This document shows positions 36,366-40,433 of a stretch of DNA of 64,000 nt, in pieces. The stretch's first letter is position 1. Each line of letters opens with the position of its first letter. Both the position numbers and the translations under genes were made by a program. Source of the DNA: an uncultured Methylophilaceae bacterium (GTDB lineage Bacteria > Pseudomonadota > Gammaproteobacteria > Burkholderiales > Methylophilaceae); assembly GCA_913009235.1 (NCBI GenBank), contig CAJVXS010000001.1, positions 62,001 through 126,000 of the forward strand. Direction: 5' to 3'. The notes under the pieces are model-generated. The model ran no database searches, was not told the DNA's origin, and was given only the letters and a program-made list of their open reading frames with translations.

Positions 36366-37664
36366 ATGGATATTCGACGTTTATCGACAACAGATGAGAA
36401 TTTTGATGAGGCCTTAAAGGCCTTGTTGGCTTTTGAAACAGCGCAAGATGACAAAATTGATGTCGTTGTGGCTGATATTTTAAAAGATGTGAAAACACGT
36501 GGCGATGCCGCTGTGTTGGAGTATACCAACCGTTTTGATAATACCTATGCGAGCAGTCTATCTGAACTTGAAGTGAGCCAAGCAGAGTTGCGAGCAGCGT
36601 TAACTGAGTTGCCTGAAGATCAGCGAGCAGCCTTGCAAGCGGCTGCCGACCGTGTGCGTAGCTATCATGAGAAGCAAGTGATGCCATCATGGAACTATAC
36701 AGAAGATGATGGCACCTTGCTCGGTCAACAGGTTACCGCATTAGACCGTGTTGGCTTATATGTGCCAGGTGGTAAAGCGGCTTATCCTTCAAGTGTATTG
36801 ATGAATGCGATTCCAGCTAAAGTGGCTGGCGTGCAAGAACTAATCATGGCCGTACCAACACCAAGTGGCGAGAAAAATGCCTTGGTACTAGCAGCGGCGG
36901 CAATTGCAGGTGTTGACCGTGTTTTTTGTATTGGTGGAGCACAAGCCGTTGGCGCACTGGCTTACGGTACAGAAACAGTGCCGCCAGTCGATAAAGTAAC
37001 TGGCCCAGGTAATGCCTATGTAGCTGCGGCAAAACGTCGTGTGTTTGGCATTGTTGGTATTGATATGGTGGCAGGTCCATCAGAGATTTTAGTGATTTGC
37101 GATGGCAAAACCAATCCTGACTGGATTGCTATGGACTTGTTTAGCCAAGCTGAGCATGATGAATTAGCACAATCGATTTTACTGTGCCCAGATGCGGACT
37201 TCTTAGATAAAGTGGCTGCGAGTATGCAGAAGCTAATAGAAGAGATGCCACGTAAAGATATTATCAGCACGTCGATTGCTGATCGAGGTGCGCTTATCTT
37301 AGTGAAAGACCTAGAAGAGGCGATTGGAATCAGTAACTATATTGCACCAGAACATTTAGAGCTTTCAATCGAAGACCCCTTGGAAATAAGCAAGAAGGTC
37401 AAGCATGCAGGTGCCATCTTTATGGGACGCGACACCTGTGAGGCATTGGGCGATTACTGTGCGGGTCCAAATCATGTATTACCAACTTCACGCACAGCGC
37501 GCTTTAGTTCGCCTCTAGGTGTCTATGACTTTCAGAAACGCTCAAGTTTAATTATGGTGTCAAATACAGGTGCGAGCAAGCTAGGTAAGATTGCTTCAAC
37601 TTTGGCGAATGGCGAGAGCTTGCAAGCGCATGCCCGATCAGCAGAATATAGGTTTAAGAAGTAA
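36366..37664 (+). CDS. hisD: Histidinol dehydrogenase
   Basis: Zinc- and NAD-dependent four-electron oxidation of histidinol to histidine, last step of the pathway. 432 residues. [38 protein letters not shown], the zinc-binding [14 protein letters not shown] and [15 protein letters not shown] are diagnostic. Starts 7 bp after hisG. Confidence 0.98.
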
Positions 37665-37668
37665 AAGG

Positions 37669-38733
37669 ATGAGCCAGTTCTGGAGCGATATCGTTCATGA
37701 TTTGACGCCTTATGTCCCGGGTGAGCAGCCCAAGGTGCAAGATTTAATTAAGCTGAACACCAATGAAAACCCTTATGGTCCCAGCCCTAAAGTGCTGGAA
37801 GCGCTTAAGGCTGAAGTGGCAGATAGTTTAAGACTTTACCCAGATCCCAGTTCAGATAGGTTGAGAAACGCGACTGCTAACTATTATGGCTTAAATGCCA
37901 GTCAAGTATTTGTTGGCAACGGATCGGATGAGGTGTTAGCACATATTTTCCAAGGCTTGCTAAATCACTCAAGACCGCTGCTTTTCCCTGACATCACTTA
38001 TAGTTTTTATCCGGTGTATTGTGGCTTGTATGGAATTGAACATGATACGATTCCACTTGATCGCCATTTTGAAATTAATATCCATAATTATGATCGACCT
38101 AATGGCGGTATTATTTTCCCTAATCCTAATGCGCCAACAGGTATTCCACTTGAGCTGACACGAATAGAAGCTCTGCTGCAGAAAAATCGACATTCCGTTG
38201 TCGTTATCGATGAGGCCTATGTCGACTTTGGTACGGAATCAGCCGTTAAGTTGATTAATGCTTACCCTAATTTATTGGTGACGCAAACCTTATCTAAGGC
38301 ACGTTCGCTAGCTGGTTTACGCGTTGGATTTGCGATGGGGCATCCAGATTTAATTGAAGCCTTGACAAGGGTAAAAGATAGCTTTAACTCTTACCCAATT
38401 GACCGTTTGGCGGAAGCGGGCGCTATTGCAGCAATTGAAGACGTCGATTATTTTGATGGCACTTGTCAAAAAGTCATTGCAACACGTGAATCTTTAGTCA
38501 AGCGGCTTGAGGGTATGGCGTTTGTTGTATTGCCTTCAGGTGGGAACTTCATTTTTGCTAAGCATGCAACAGTGGATGGAAAAAAATTATCAGAAAAACT
38601 GCGTGAGAAAAAAGTGATTGTGCGACACTTTAAAAAGCCTGAACGCATTACTCCATTTATACGCATCACAATAGGAACAGAGCCGCAAATGGAGCAGTTG
38701 GTCAGTGCGTTAACATTAATACTGAGTCAGTAG
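37669..38733 (+). CDS. hisC: Histidinol-phosphate aminotransferase
   Basis: PLP enzyme making histidinol phosphate. 355 residues from the ATG at 37669 (SD AAAAGG, 4 bp after hisD stop); an upstream start inside hisD is rejected. [20 protein letters not shown], the [11 protein letters not shown] segment and the PLP lysine in [14 protein letters not shown] are visible. A gap of 177 bp with hps-specific signals follows. Confidence 0.97.
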
Positions 38734-38778
38734 ATGAGCTCAAAAGCGCCTATTTTGTATTTAAATAACGCGATGTTG

Positions 38779-38808
38779 TTGAAATAATCAGCCAATTGAG
38801 GTTATGAT
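38779..38808 (+). promoter_or_regulatory. Predicted hps promoter
   Basis: TTGAAA (38779-38784) and TATGAT (38803-38808) with an 18-bp spacer lie in the 177-bp gap between hisC and hps, about 100 bp before the hps start. This would allow expression independent of the his operon. The leader has a possible CACTTA/TAAGTG stem (38831-38856). Confidence 0.5.
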
Positions 38809-38869
38809 GTCGGATTGTGCACTTGCGACTCACTTAACAGAGTTGATGGCTAAGTGGACACAAAATTAA
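38807..38869 (+). CDS. Candidate 20-codon small ORF upstream of hps
   Basis: ATG at 38807 with GAGG 5 bp upstream opens MSDCALATHLTELMAKWTQN and stops at TAA 38867-38869. It overlaps the predicted hps -10 box, so it could only be translated from transcripts read through from hisC. It may be a leader peptide or chance. A 17-codon frame also starts directly after the hisC stop (38734-38787). Confidence 0.2.
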   Translation: MSDCALATHLTELMAKWTQN

Positions 38870-38910
38870 TTTAATTGTTTTAATCGAGTAAATTCGGAGG
38901 AAGACTTATC

Positions 38911-39720
38911 ATGGCACAAACCCAGATGGCATTAGATTCACAAGACTTTGACGCAACAGTTGCTCTAGCAGCTACAGTTGCACCACACGTTGATATTTTA
39001 GAAATCGGCACACCATGCATTAAGCATAACGGCATTGAGTTACTAAAAACATTACGTGAAAAATTCCCAAACAACAAAATCTTAGTTGATTTAAAAACAA
39101 TGGATGCTGGCTTCTACGAAGCTGAGCCTTTCTACGCAGCCGGTGCAGATATCTGTACAGTGCTAGGTACTGCTGATATCGGTACAATTAAAGGTTTTAT
39201 TGATGTTGCTAATAAATACAACAAAATGGCACAGGTTGATTTGATCAACGTTGCTGACAAAAAAGCACGTACATTAGAGGTGGCTAAATTAGGTGCGCAT
39301 ATCATCGGTGTTCACACAGGTTTAGACCAGCAAGCTGCAGGCCAAACACCATTTACTGATTTAGCATTAGTAACTAGCTTGAACACAGGTGCTAAAGTAT
39401 CAGTTGCTGGTGGTGTTAAAGCGAATACAGCTGCTCAAGTAGTTGCCGCTGGCGCTGATATCGTTGTTGCTGGTGCAGCTATTTACGGTGCTGAAGATCC
39501 AGCTGCTTCTGCAGCTGAGATTACAGGTATCGTACATGCTGGTAATGCTAGTTCTAGTTGTAAGAAATTGTTGCCATGGGCAATTCTCGTTGGTGTAGTA
39601 TTGTTAGGTTTTTATGCGTTTAACGGCGACACAGTGGATGTTGCAGCAACAGACGCTACTGCAACAACGGAGCAAGCTGTTGAGGTTGTATCTGATGTAG
39701 TTGAAGCTGCGACTGAGTAA
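38911..39720 (+). CDS. hps: 3-Hexulose-6-phosphate synthase with C-terminal membrane tail
   Basis: HPS condenses formaldehyde with ribulose 5-phosphate, the entry step of the ribulose monophosphate cycle. Residues 1-210 form the usual soluble barrel of the OMP decarboxylase superfamily: EIGTPCIKHNG, the DLKTMD motif (60-65) with its metal/catalytic acids and Lys, GVHTGLDQQ around His135, and VAGGVK. The family normally ends near 210 residues; here 59 more follow. SSSCKK precedes a hydrophobic segment (about 220-237, LLPWAILVGVVLLGFYAF), then an acidic tail rich in Ala, Thr, Asp and Glu. Basic-before, acidic-after predicts the tail outside. Strong SD (GGAGGAA). No isomerase (phi) gene is nearby. 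Confidence 0.95.
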   Translation: MAQTQMALDSQDFDATVALAATVAPHVDILEIGTPCIKHNGIELLKTLREKFPNNKILVDLKTMDAGFYEAEPFYAAGADICTVLGTADIGTIKGFIDVANKYNKMAQVDLINVADKKARTLEVAKLGAHIIGVHTGLDQQAAGQTPFTDLALVTSLNTGAKVSVAGGVKANTAAQVVAAGADIVVAGAAIYGAEDPAASAAEITGIVHAGNASSSCKKLLPWAILVGVVLLGFYAFNGDTVDVAATDATATTEQAVEVVSDVVEAATE

Positions 39721-39740: not shown

Positions 39741-39768
39741 AAAAGCCGGCCTTTTGGTCGGCTTTTTT
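39741..39768 (+). terminator. Rho-independent terminator after hps
   Basis: AAAAGCCGGCC (39741-39751) pairs with GGTCGGCTTTT around a TTTT loop (one G-U), and the stem runs into a T6 tract (39763-39768). It lies 20 bp past the hps stop and confirms that the long reading frame, tail included, is the natural gene end. Confidence 0.8.
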
Positions 39769-39845: not shown

Positions 39846-40433
39846 ATGCGTCAAGCTGAAGTCACCCGCGACACCCTTGAAACACAAATTACAGTCTCTA
39901 TTAATATAGACGGTACTGGCCAATCACAATTTAAAACTGGGATTGGGTTTTTAGACCATATGCTAGATCAAGTGGCCCGTCACGGCATGATGGATATTAA
40001 TGTGTATGCAAAAGGTGATTTACACATTGATGCACACCATACGGTTGAAGATATTGGTATTACGCTTGGACAGGCTTTCTTTAAGGCGCTCGGCGATAAA
40101 CAAGGCATTAATCGTTATGGGCATGCTTACGTGCCATTAGATGAGGCGCTTTCTCGTGTTGTTCTTGATTTGTCTGGGCGACCAGGTATGTCATTTAATT
40201 GCGAGTTCACGCGTGCTGCTATTGGTGAGTTTGATGTTGATTTGATCCACGAATTTTTCCAAGGTTTTACCAACCATGCGTTGGTGACCTTGCATGTGGA
40301 CAATTTAAAAGGGCATAACTCGCATCATCAAGCAGAAACGATTTTTAAAGCGTTTGGCCGCGCATTACGCATGGCAGTGACACGCGATGAACGTATGACC
40401 GGTGTTATGCCTTCTACAAAAGGCGTATTATAG
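39846..40433 (+). CDS. hisB: Imidazoleglycerol-phosphate dehydratase
   Basis: Manganese-dependent dehydratase of histidine synthesis. 195 residues, single domain with no histidinol-phosphatase fusion, so a separate phosphatase is needed. Metal-binding [26 protein letters not shown] and the second [19 protein letters not shown] are clear. First gene of the distal his block. Confidence 0.98.

Follow-up and report, generated by a model that had tools for sequence, protein, structure and literature searches.

The hps gene in the stretch of DNA analysed here (64,000 nucleotides from an uncultured Methylophilaceae bacterium, hereafter the window) probably encodes the membrane-docked member of a two-isoenzyme system of 3-hexulose-6-phosphate synthase (HPS) that is widespread in the Methylophilaceae. 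Taken as a whole, i.e. as a docked isoenzyme that captures formaldehyde where it enters the cell, this explanation is assigned a probability of roughly 0.68. A cytoplasmic TIM-barrel core would convert formaldehyde and ribulose-5-phosphate into hexulose-6-phosphate, as any HPS would, and the C-terminus would dock the enzyme on the inner membrane, via a MinD-like amphipathic helix (AMP form) in most genera and via a transmembrane helix (TM form) in five. In the TM form, an acidic disordered tail would extend into the periplasm; the bare near-twin encoded beside the hexuloisomerase gene would remain cytosolic. The likeliest benefit would be a pool of HPS at the very place where formaldehyde, released by PQQ methanol dehydrogenases in the periplasm, passes the membrane, so that its fixation would precede its spread. 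The individual elements of this proposal differ in certainty. The sequences directly show the tail, how it is conserved, its association with one of the paralogues, and the existence of two alternative putative anchors. Sequences and models combined make membrane anchoring highly probable, whereas topology and catalysis are predictions from sequence, and for the capture of entering formaldehyde the odds are about even.

The hps gene of the window

The reading frame of hps covers positions 38911–39720 of the plus strand, from ATG to TAA, and encodes 269 residues. The gene lies within a histidine biosynthesis cluster, and the locus comprises the following features.

36366–37664 (+): hisD, upstream in the same cluster (TIGR00069, 529 bits)
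37672–38733 (+): hisC, upstream neighbour (TIGR01141, 301 bits, cut-off 277)
38911–39540 (+): HPS catalytic core, residues 1–210 (TIGR03128, PF00215, 3ajx, D60/K62/D65)
39541–39567 (+): linker, residues 211–219 (GNASSSCKK), with two lysines directly before the membrane helix (sequence, charge counts)
39568–39624 (+): predicted transmembrane helix, residues 220–238, opening with a conserved L-P-W (hydropathy, AlphaFold2, LPW/LPY conservation)
39625–39717 (+): acidic Ala/Thr/Val/Glu tail, residues 239–269, predicted to be disordered and, by the charge rule, periplasmic (charge count, pLDDT)
39741–39766 (+): stem of an intrinsic terminator 3′ of hps (fold −17.8 kcal/mol, z −6.2)
39846–40433 (+): hisB, downstream neighbour (NF002106, 361 bits)

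A preliminary description of the window had read the first 210 or so residues as HPS, and this identification holds. The HxlA model TIGR03128 matches residues 5–207 with 241.3 bits, above its cut-off of 200, which places the protein in the family; PF00215 is matched as well, and the nearest solved structure is 3ajx (E 1.8e-43). D60, K62 and D65, which we take to represent the D-x-K-x-x-D motif of HPS, are invariant across all 25 sequences of alignment A1, in which 24 relatives align over the entire window protein with identities of 70–86%. The same description had noted SSSCKK, one hydrophobic helix and an acidic tail beyond the core. SSSCKK occupies residues 214–219, the hydropathy maximum falls on residues 220–238 (mean 1.96 in a 19-residue Kyte–Doolittle window), and the last 31 residues contain eight acidic and no basic side chains. 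In the AlphaFold2 model (25 sequences), the barrel is joined by a single helix at residues 214–238, with pLDDT values below 50 at residues 214–217 and 239–269.

The claim that a correctly placed terminator follows the stop codon is borne out by the fold at 39741–39766, although this stem was not picked up by a simple consensus scan. With its own terminator, hps may constitute a separate transcription unit within the his cluster. One HPS was found in the window's genome (48% completeness), and two matches each were found in the five other genomes of the genus. The 177-bp gap 5′ of hps (38734–38910) holds a promoter-like site at 38779–38808, the number of such sites being 3 vs. 3.1 in shuffled sequences.

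Tailed and bare HPS occupy different loci

HPS was searched in 187 Methylophilaceae genomes, and the C-terminal ends were read from loci L001–L180. Leaving out one fragment of 149 residues, 189 of the 190 extracted copies were classified; these include duplicate records of the same genome and correspond to 132 distinct proteins (61 TM, 27 AMP and 44 bare). Three types of C-terminus can be distinguished. Bare copies have 209–214 residues, the AMP form has 224–230 residues and terminates in 12 conserved residues of amphipathic character (GGLFGWLKKLFS type), and the TM form carries a helix that opens with LPW, followed by a Pro/Ala/Glu-rich tail, for a total of 268–352 residues in complete proteins. 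The previous assumption that family members end near residue 210 consequently fails for Methylophilaceae HPS encoded in the his cluster: all such copies read were tailed.

The type of C-terminus is tightly linked to the locus. Among the 126 tailed copies, 124 adjoin hisC or hisB and none is found near phi or tal, the genes for hexuloisomerase and transaldolase. The only two read outside the his cluster are L162 (4636) in genome G050 and L166 (4648) in G177. Conversely, all 63 bare copies are located near phi, 58 of them also near the transaldolase gene, and none resides in the his cluster (phi and tal were identified in locus L077). Both gene locations, and an identity of about 90% between the two copies, have been reported for cultured Methylophilaceae from Lake Washington (PMC4109929); the copy in the histidine cluster is the same gene in the same location as the tailed copy described here, and the available part of that paper mentions neither a tail nor membrane association. 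Thus, the second copy is already known, and the two putative membrane tails appear undescribed in the literature found: among the open-licence papers listed, none describes an HPS tail or anchor.

Tailed HPS is widespread in the family

The TM form was scored when the match extended to query residue 238 or beyond without an internal stop. By match reach, it is present in at least 70 of the 187 genomes, and in at least 74 when G071, G134, G154 and G124 are included; in G124, the protein ends at the contig end, inside the helix. The AMP pattern matched in 68 genomes, and 57 remained after 11 matches away from HPS tails had been dropped. Four of the rejected matches were read (G024, G061, G071, G160) and proved to be other sequence, and the other seven are distant from HPS genes and represent a common RimM-like 26-mer; for ten of these 11 genomes, a tailed HPS is documented independently of the pattern (TM form in nine, an AMP variant in G133). 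As a check on the pattern, reading the first 30 loci confirmed an HPS tail in 27, and in the other 30 AMP genomes the match was located at the HPS end by coordinates or read directly (G105, G176). Five variant AMP tails that were read directly (G115, G117, G133, G185, G051) bring the AMP form to 62 genomes. With G045 carrying both forms, tailed HPS is present in 135 genomes, which belong to 22 of the 24 genera.

Two genera with genomes of 0.7–1.4 Mb, g2 (31 genomes) and g15 (16 genomes), were set aside and labelled as small-genome genera from size. Outside these, a tailed HPS is found in 135 of 140 genomes; in the other five, all drafts (G037, G075, G096, G155, G184), the search yielded a bare copy, fragments or no HPS at all in place of a tailed copy. 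In the 47 genomes of g2 and g15, the AMP pattern gave no HPS match; its single match, in G024, falls in an unrelated frame. The HPS matches listed cover 11 of these genomes, with nine bare copies, a fragment in G028 and no real HPS match in G030, and statements on the TM form in g2 and g15 refer to these 11. Five genera use the TM form, including the window's own and, among named records, Methylophilus and Methylotenera, while most genera use the AMP form; Methylophilus methylotrophus (L059) belongs to the former group. A search for the tail among Methylophilaceae, as suggested in the preliminary description, therefore reveals it to be anything but unique to the window.

The predicted transmembrane tail

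In the 61 distinct TM-form proteins from loci L001–L180, the helix starts with LPW in 59 cases and LPY in two, and the residues that come next vary largely within the hydrophobic class; G071, outside this set, shows TPW. In all 60 complete TM tails, the flank preceding the helix is more positively charged than the one following it (mean +1.7 vs. −1.5), and a topology with the N-terminus inside and the C-terminus outside is therefore predicted. Hydropathy, model and charge counts agree on a single N-in, C-out span of about 19 residues with positive-inside flanks. An inner-membrane anchor with the enzyme in the cytoplasm and the tail outside, as originally proposed from charge bias, is well supported by the conservation of the tail, the positive-inside flanks, the predicted helix and the presence of a second membrane-directed tail in relatives. 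The stretch after the helix measures 29–112 residues (median 52.5, n = 60), and 31 in the window protein. Classical C-tail-anchored proteins carry at most some 30 residues beyond the helix, so that assignment to this class was rejected for most TM forms as their stretch is too long, with the window protein as a borderline case.

Seven TM tails (L009, L016, L018, L027, L030, L090, L095) share a DGLVGAAKDATGxAK-like motif at or near the end, after a low-complexity stretch, and this motif may be a periplasmic contact site. The idea of the TM tail as a module common to other proteins was discarded: a profile of 11 TM-tail segments (A3) recovered the HPS tail in eight of eight genomes with E ≤ 2.7e-17, and the next best match, in G045, had an E value of 0.0165. 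Searching the PDB with the tail profile gave a best E value of 0.12, and a Pfam scan of 25 tailed proteins returned no convincing match to the tail (five families with one member each, E 0.008–0.26).

The amphipathic tail

For the 27 distinct AMP proteins, which comprise ten distinct sequences of the last 12 residues, the mean hydrophobic moment of the tail is 0.64 (range 0.61–0.68) and the charge is +1 to +2. Shuffled AMP tails reach a mean of 0.38 and a 95th percentile of 0.62. The lowest AMP moments (0.61) fall slightly below this percentile because the composition of the tail is hydrophobic anyway. The C-termini of 44 bare HPS proteins show a mean moment of 0.33 and a maximum of 0.59, and none of the 49 mechanical open reading frames of the window (≥180 residues) reaches the AMP mean of 0.64.

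The AMP tail resembles the membrane-targeting tail of MinD. E. coli MinD ends in KKGFLKRLFGG, and the comparison of GFLKRLFGG with GWVKKLFGG from the AMP tail of G034 reveals a likeness, homology not being established; the end of G045's own MinD, KPGLLKRLFGGK, resembles the AMP tail as well. With the same simple measure, moments of 0.53 were obtained for E. coli MinD, where the best stretch lies just upstream of the final residues, and 0.84 for FtsA. The carriers differ, MinD being an ATPase with reversible membrane binding, whereas the AMP tail is attached to a metabolic enzyme. A C-terminal amphipathic, cationic helix of the MinD type is thus a trait of the AMP tail in relatives and not of the window protein, and it is modelled at low confidence: AlphaFold2 places a helix at residues 216–224 of L109 with pLDDT values below 50. 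Judging by hydrophobic moment and charge, the AMP tail looks like a membrane-seeking element with putative lipid binding.

HPS beyond the Methylophilaceae

Other families were sampled via f170 (61 genomes), f5 (39 genomes) and a few more of the class sample, and the returned loci were read. Among these, 52 distinct HPS proteins were found, none of which has a tail or anchor; 45 end at residues 211–215, and seven run into PHI and end at 387–403. The HPS proteins and HPS-PHI fusions of f170 and f5, which are probably methanotrophs and relatives of Methylophaga, share the core of the window HPS with 57–65% identity over full matches and lack an anchor. In one f170 genome (G435, contig C1), three hps copies with equal scores are spaced by about 5.2 kb (3513213; 3518402, i.e. 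L226; 3523591), and an HPS-PHI fusion is encoded elsewhere in the same genome. Ordinary HPS has the same whole core and D-x-K-x-x-D motif as the window protein, with bare copies of relatives up to 86% identical to it, but ends at about 207–214 without an anchor where the window protein continues to residue 269.

HPS of the methanotroph Methylococcus capsulatus was reportedly found to be particulate by Ferenci, Strom and Quayle in 1974. This membrane-associated activity can be compared with the anchoring proposed here; none of the 52 outside proteins, which may include that of M. capsulatus, is anchored. A Methylophaga proteome study that covered the soluble fraction and excluded the membrane fraction detected HPS (PMC6548844). 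In Methylotenera mobilis JLW8, hps ranks among the highly expressed genes, with the copies not told apart in the accessible part of the report (PMC3728764).

Selection and history of cores and tails

The ratio pN/pS, computed over pooled pairs, is 0.134 for the AMP tail (11 aligned codons), with 0.160 in the corresponding cores; the TM segment (18 codons) stands at 0.452 and its own cores at 0.102. These values are rough, as synonymous sites are near saturation. By this measure, the AMP tail is under purifying selection and constrained like the enzyme core. The TM segment appears less conserved than the core, as would be expected if hydrophobicity alone matters, and constitutes the weaker evidence. 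The low values for the cores of both tailed forms (0.10–0.16) speak for working enzymes.

Comparison of the two cores in 24 genomes gave a mean identity of 90.3% between the his-cluster copy and the bare copy of the same genome. Between genomes, identities are 88.7% for his–his and 87.4% for his–other pairs. In 21 of the 24 genomes, the his-cluster core is nearer to the his-cluster core of another genome than to its own bare paralogue (reverse in two, one tie), and judging from these identities overwriting of the core is not general. Still, a quick tree built from the DNA of 90 cores pairs the tailed with the bare copy of the same genome in G178 (SH-aLRT 96), G049 (100) and G034 (80), and the two copies of G106 fall into the same group as the G049 pair. 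The sister pairing in G178, G049 and G034 is a pattern that gene conversion would produce. On the core tree, the label tailed or bare requires 18 changes vs. 41 in shuffles.

The clearest case is the his cluster of G045 (L141), which has the order hisC, TM-form HPS, AMP-form HPS, hisB. The two tandem genes (starts 6083 and 4963, minus strand) share 640 identical bases, from −29 to +611 relative to the first aligned codon, with divergence setting in at the onset of the two different tails; a recent duplication with one tail exchanged would look the same. A second type of HPS core, with an end like AREIREL and about 60% identical to that of the window, was observed in L161–L168 (G050, G034, G177, G051, G035), L277 (G033) and L312 (G048), where it is seen in bare genes arrayed in tandem near phi and in combination with an AMP tail. 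The latter combination is found in G034, G035, G050, G051 and G177. From the G045 tandem, the sister cores and the AMP tail on the second core type it follows that a tail can persist while the core is overwritten. Common descent accounts for the link between tail and locus, but by itself it does not account for persistence through core replacement and for two anchors at one place.

Why HPS may be docked at the membrane

PQQ alcohol dehydrogenases act in the periplasm, and formaldehyde must therefore cross the inner membrane. As the C-terminus of a TIM barrel is on the face opposite the active site, a C-terminal anchor leaves the latter open to the cytosol. Docking HPS where formaldehyde enters thus makes mechanistic sense. 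The PQQ alcohol dehydrogenase family scored above cut-off in all 18 genomes checked, 14 with tailed HPS and four small genomes with bare HPS, and because of these four its presence lacks discriminating power for the tail; tethering is not required for having the enzyme, as the small-genome relatives manage without it. Methylamine dehydrogenase scored above cut-off in three of the 18 genomes, all of them among the 14 tailed ones. A link to the tail is thus unsupported, and with so few carriers this enzyme cannot be the general reason for tethering.

These observations lend some weight to the possible, albeit rather unlikely, case that the tail anchors HPS at the membrane for another reason, such as proximity to a membrane complex or transporter, or assignment of the two isoenzymes to different flux branches, assimilation and the dissimilatory RuMP cycle. 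The tailed HPS has no adjoining isomerase, unlike the bare copy, methylamine dehydrogenase is not linked to it, and small-genome relatives combine a PQQ dehydrogenase with bare HPS; its neighbourhood is one of histidine synthesis, however, and suggests no partner. It is improbable that the tail serves protein docking or oligomerisation in place of membrane anchoring: amphipathic helices can bind proteins and the AMP helix is modelled with low confidence, but five genera have, at the same position, an uncharged hydrophobic helix of 19 residues that is flanked in positive-inside fashion and followed by a long, acidic, disordered tail, an arrangement not easily reconciled with a docking helix, and the property common to both tails is membrane affinity.

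Export of HPS or cleavage of the tail, yielding a periplasmic or soluble product, is very improbable. An acidic tail, if outside, would be exposed to trimming, but the barrel begins at the N-terminus and leaves no room for an N-terminal signal, ribulose-5-phosphate is cytosolic, and the positive-inside rule places the core inside. The chance that the extension is an artefact or neutral read-through, whether by frameshift, assembly error or drift, is next to nil, and nothing was found in its favour. In-frame tails are conserved in 22 of 24 genera, single-contig genomes included, the AMP tail is under purifying selection and a terminator follows the stop codon; the artefact reading is refuted by the conservation already, in agreement with the preliminary description, which had argued against an assembly error.

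Docking of an HPS isoenzyme for formaldehyde capture remains the preferred explanation, and the placement of the tailed gene in the his cluster is not accounted for by it. One may go further and envisage a division of labour between membrane entry and cytosolic HPS, with cores homogenised by gene conversion in several lineages and the anchor kept and even swapped, where the acidic tail of the TM form reaches towards the periplasmic methanol dehydrogenase or its cytochrome, forming a trans-membrane assembly for the handover of formaldehyde. This extended version is regarded as doubtful.

Implications

Natural and engineered methanol use alike have HPS as their entry enzyme, and Methylophilus methylotrophus, a TM-form species, has been used commercially for feed protein according to the part of PMC3728764 available. 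The tails could serve as ready-made anchors, of 12 residues or one helix, to place HPS at the membranes of synthetic methylotrophs. For the biology of the family, the finding touches on a basic question of methylotrophy, namely how the RuMP cycle in the cytoplasm can be supplied with formaldehyde generated in the periplasm without toxic effects on the cell. The Methylophilaceae seem to keep a dedicated, membrane-docked HPS beside a soluble twin of similar core.
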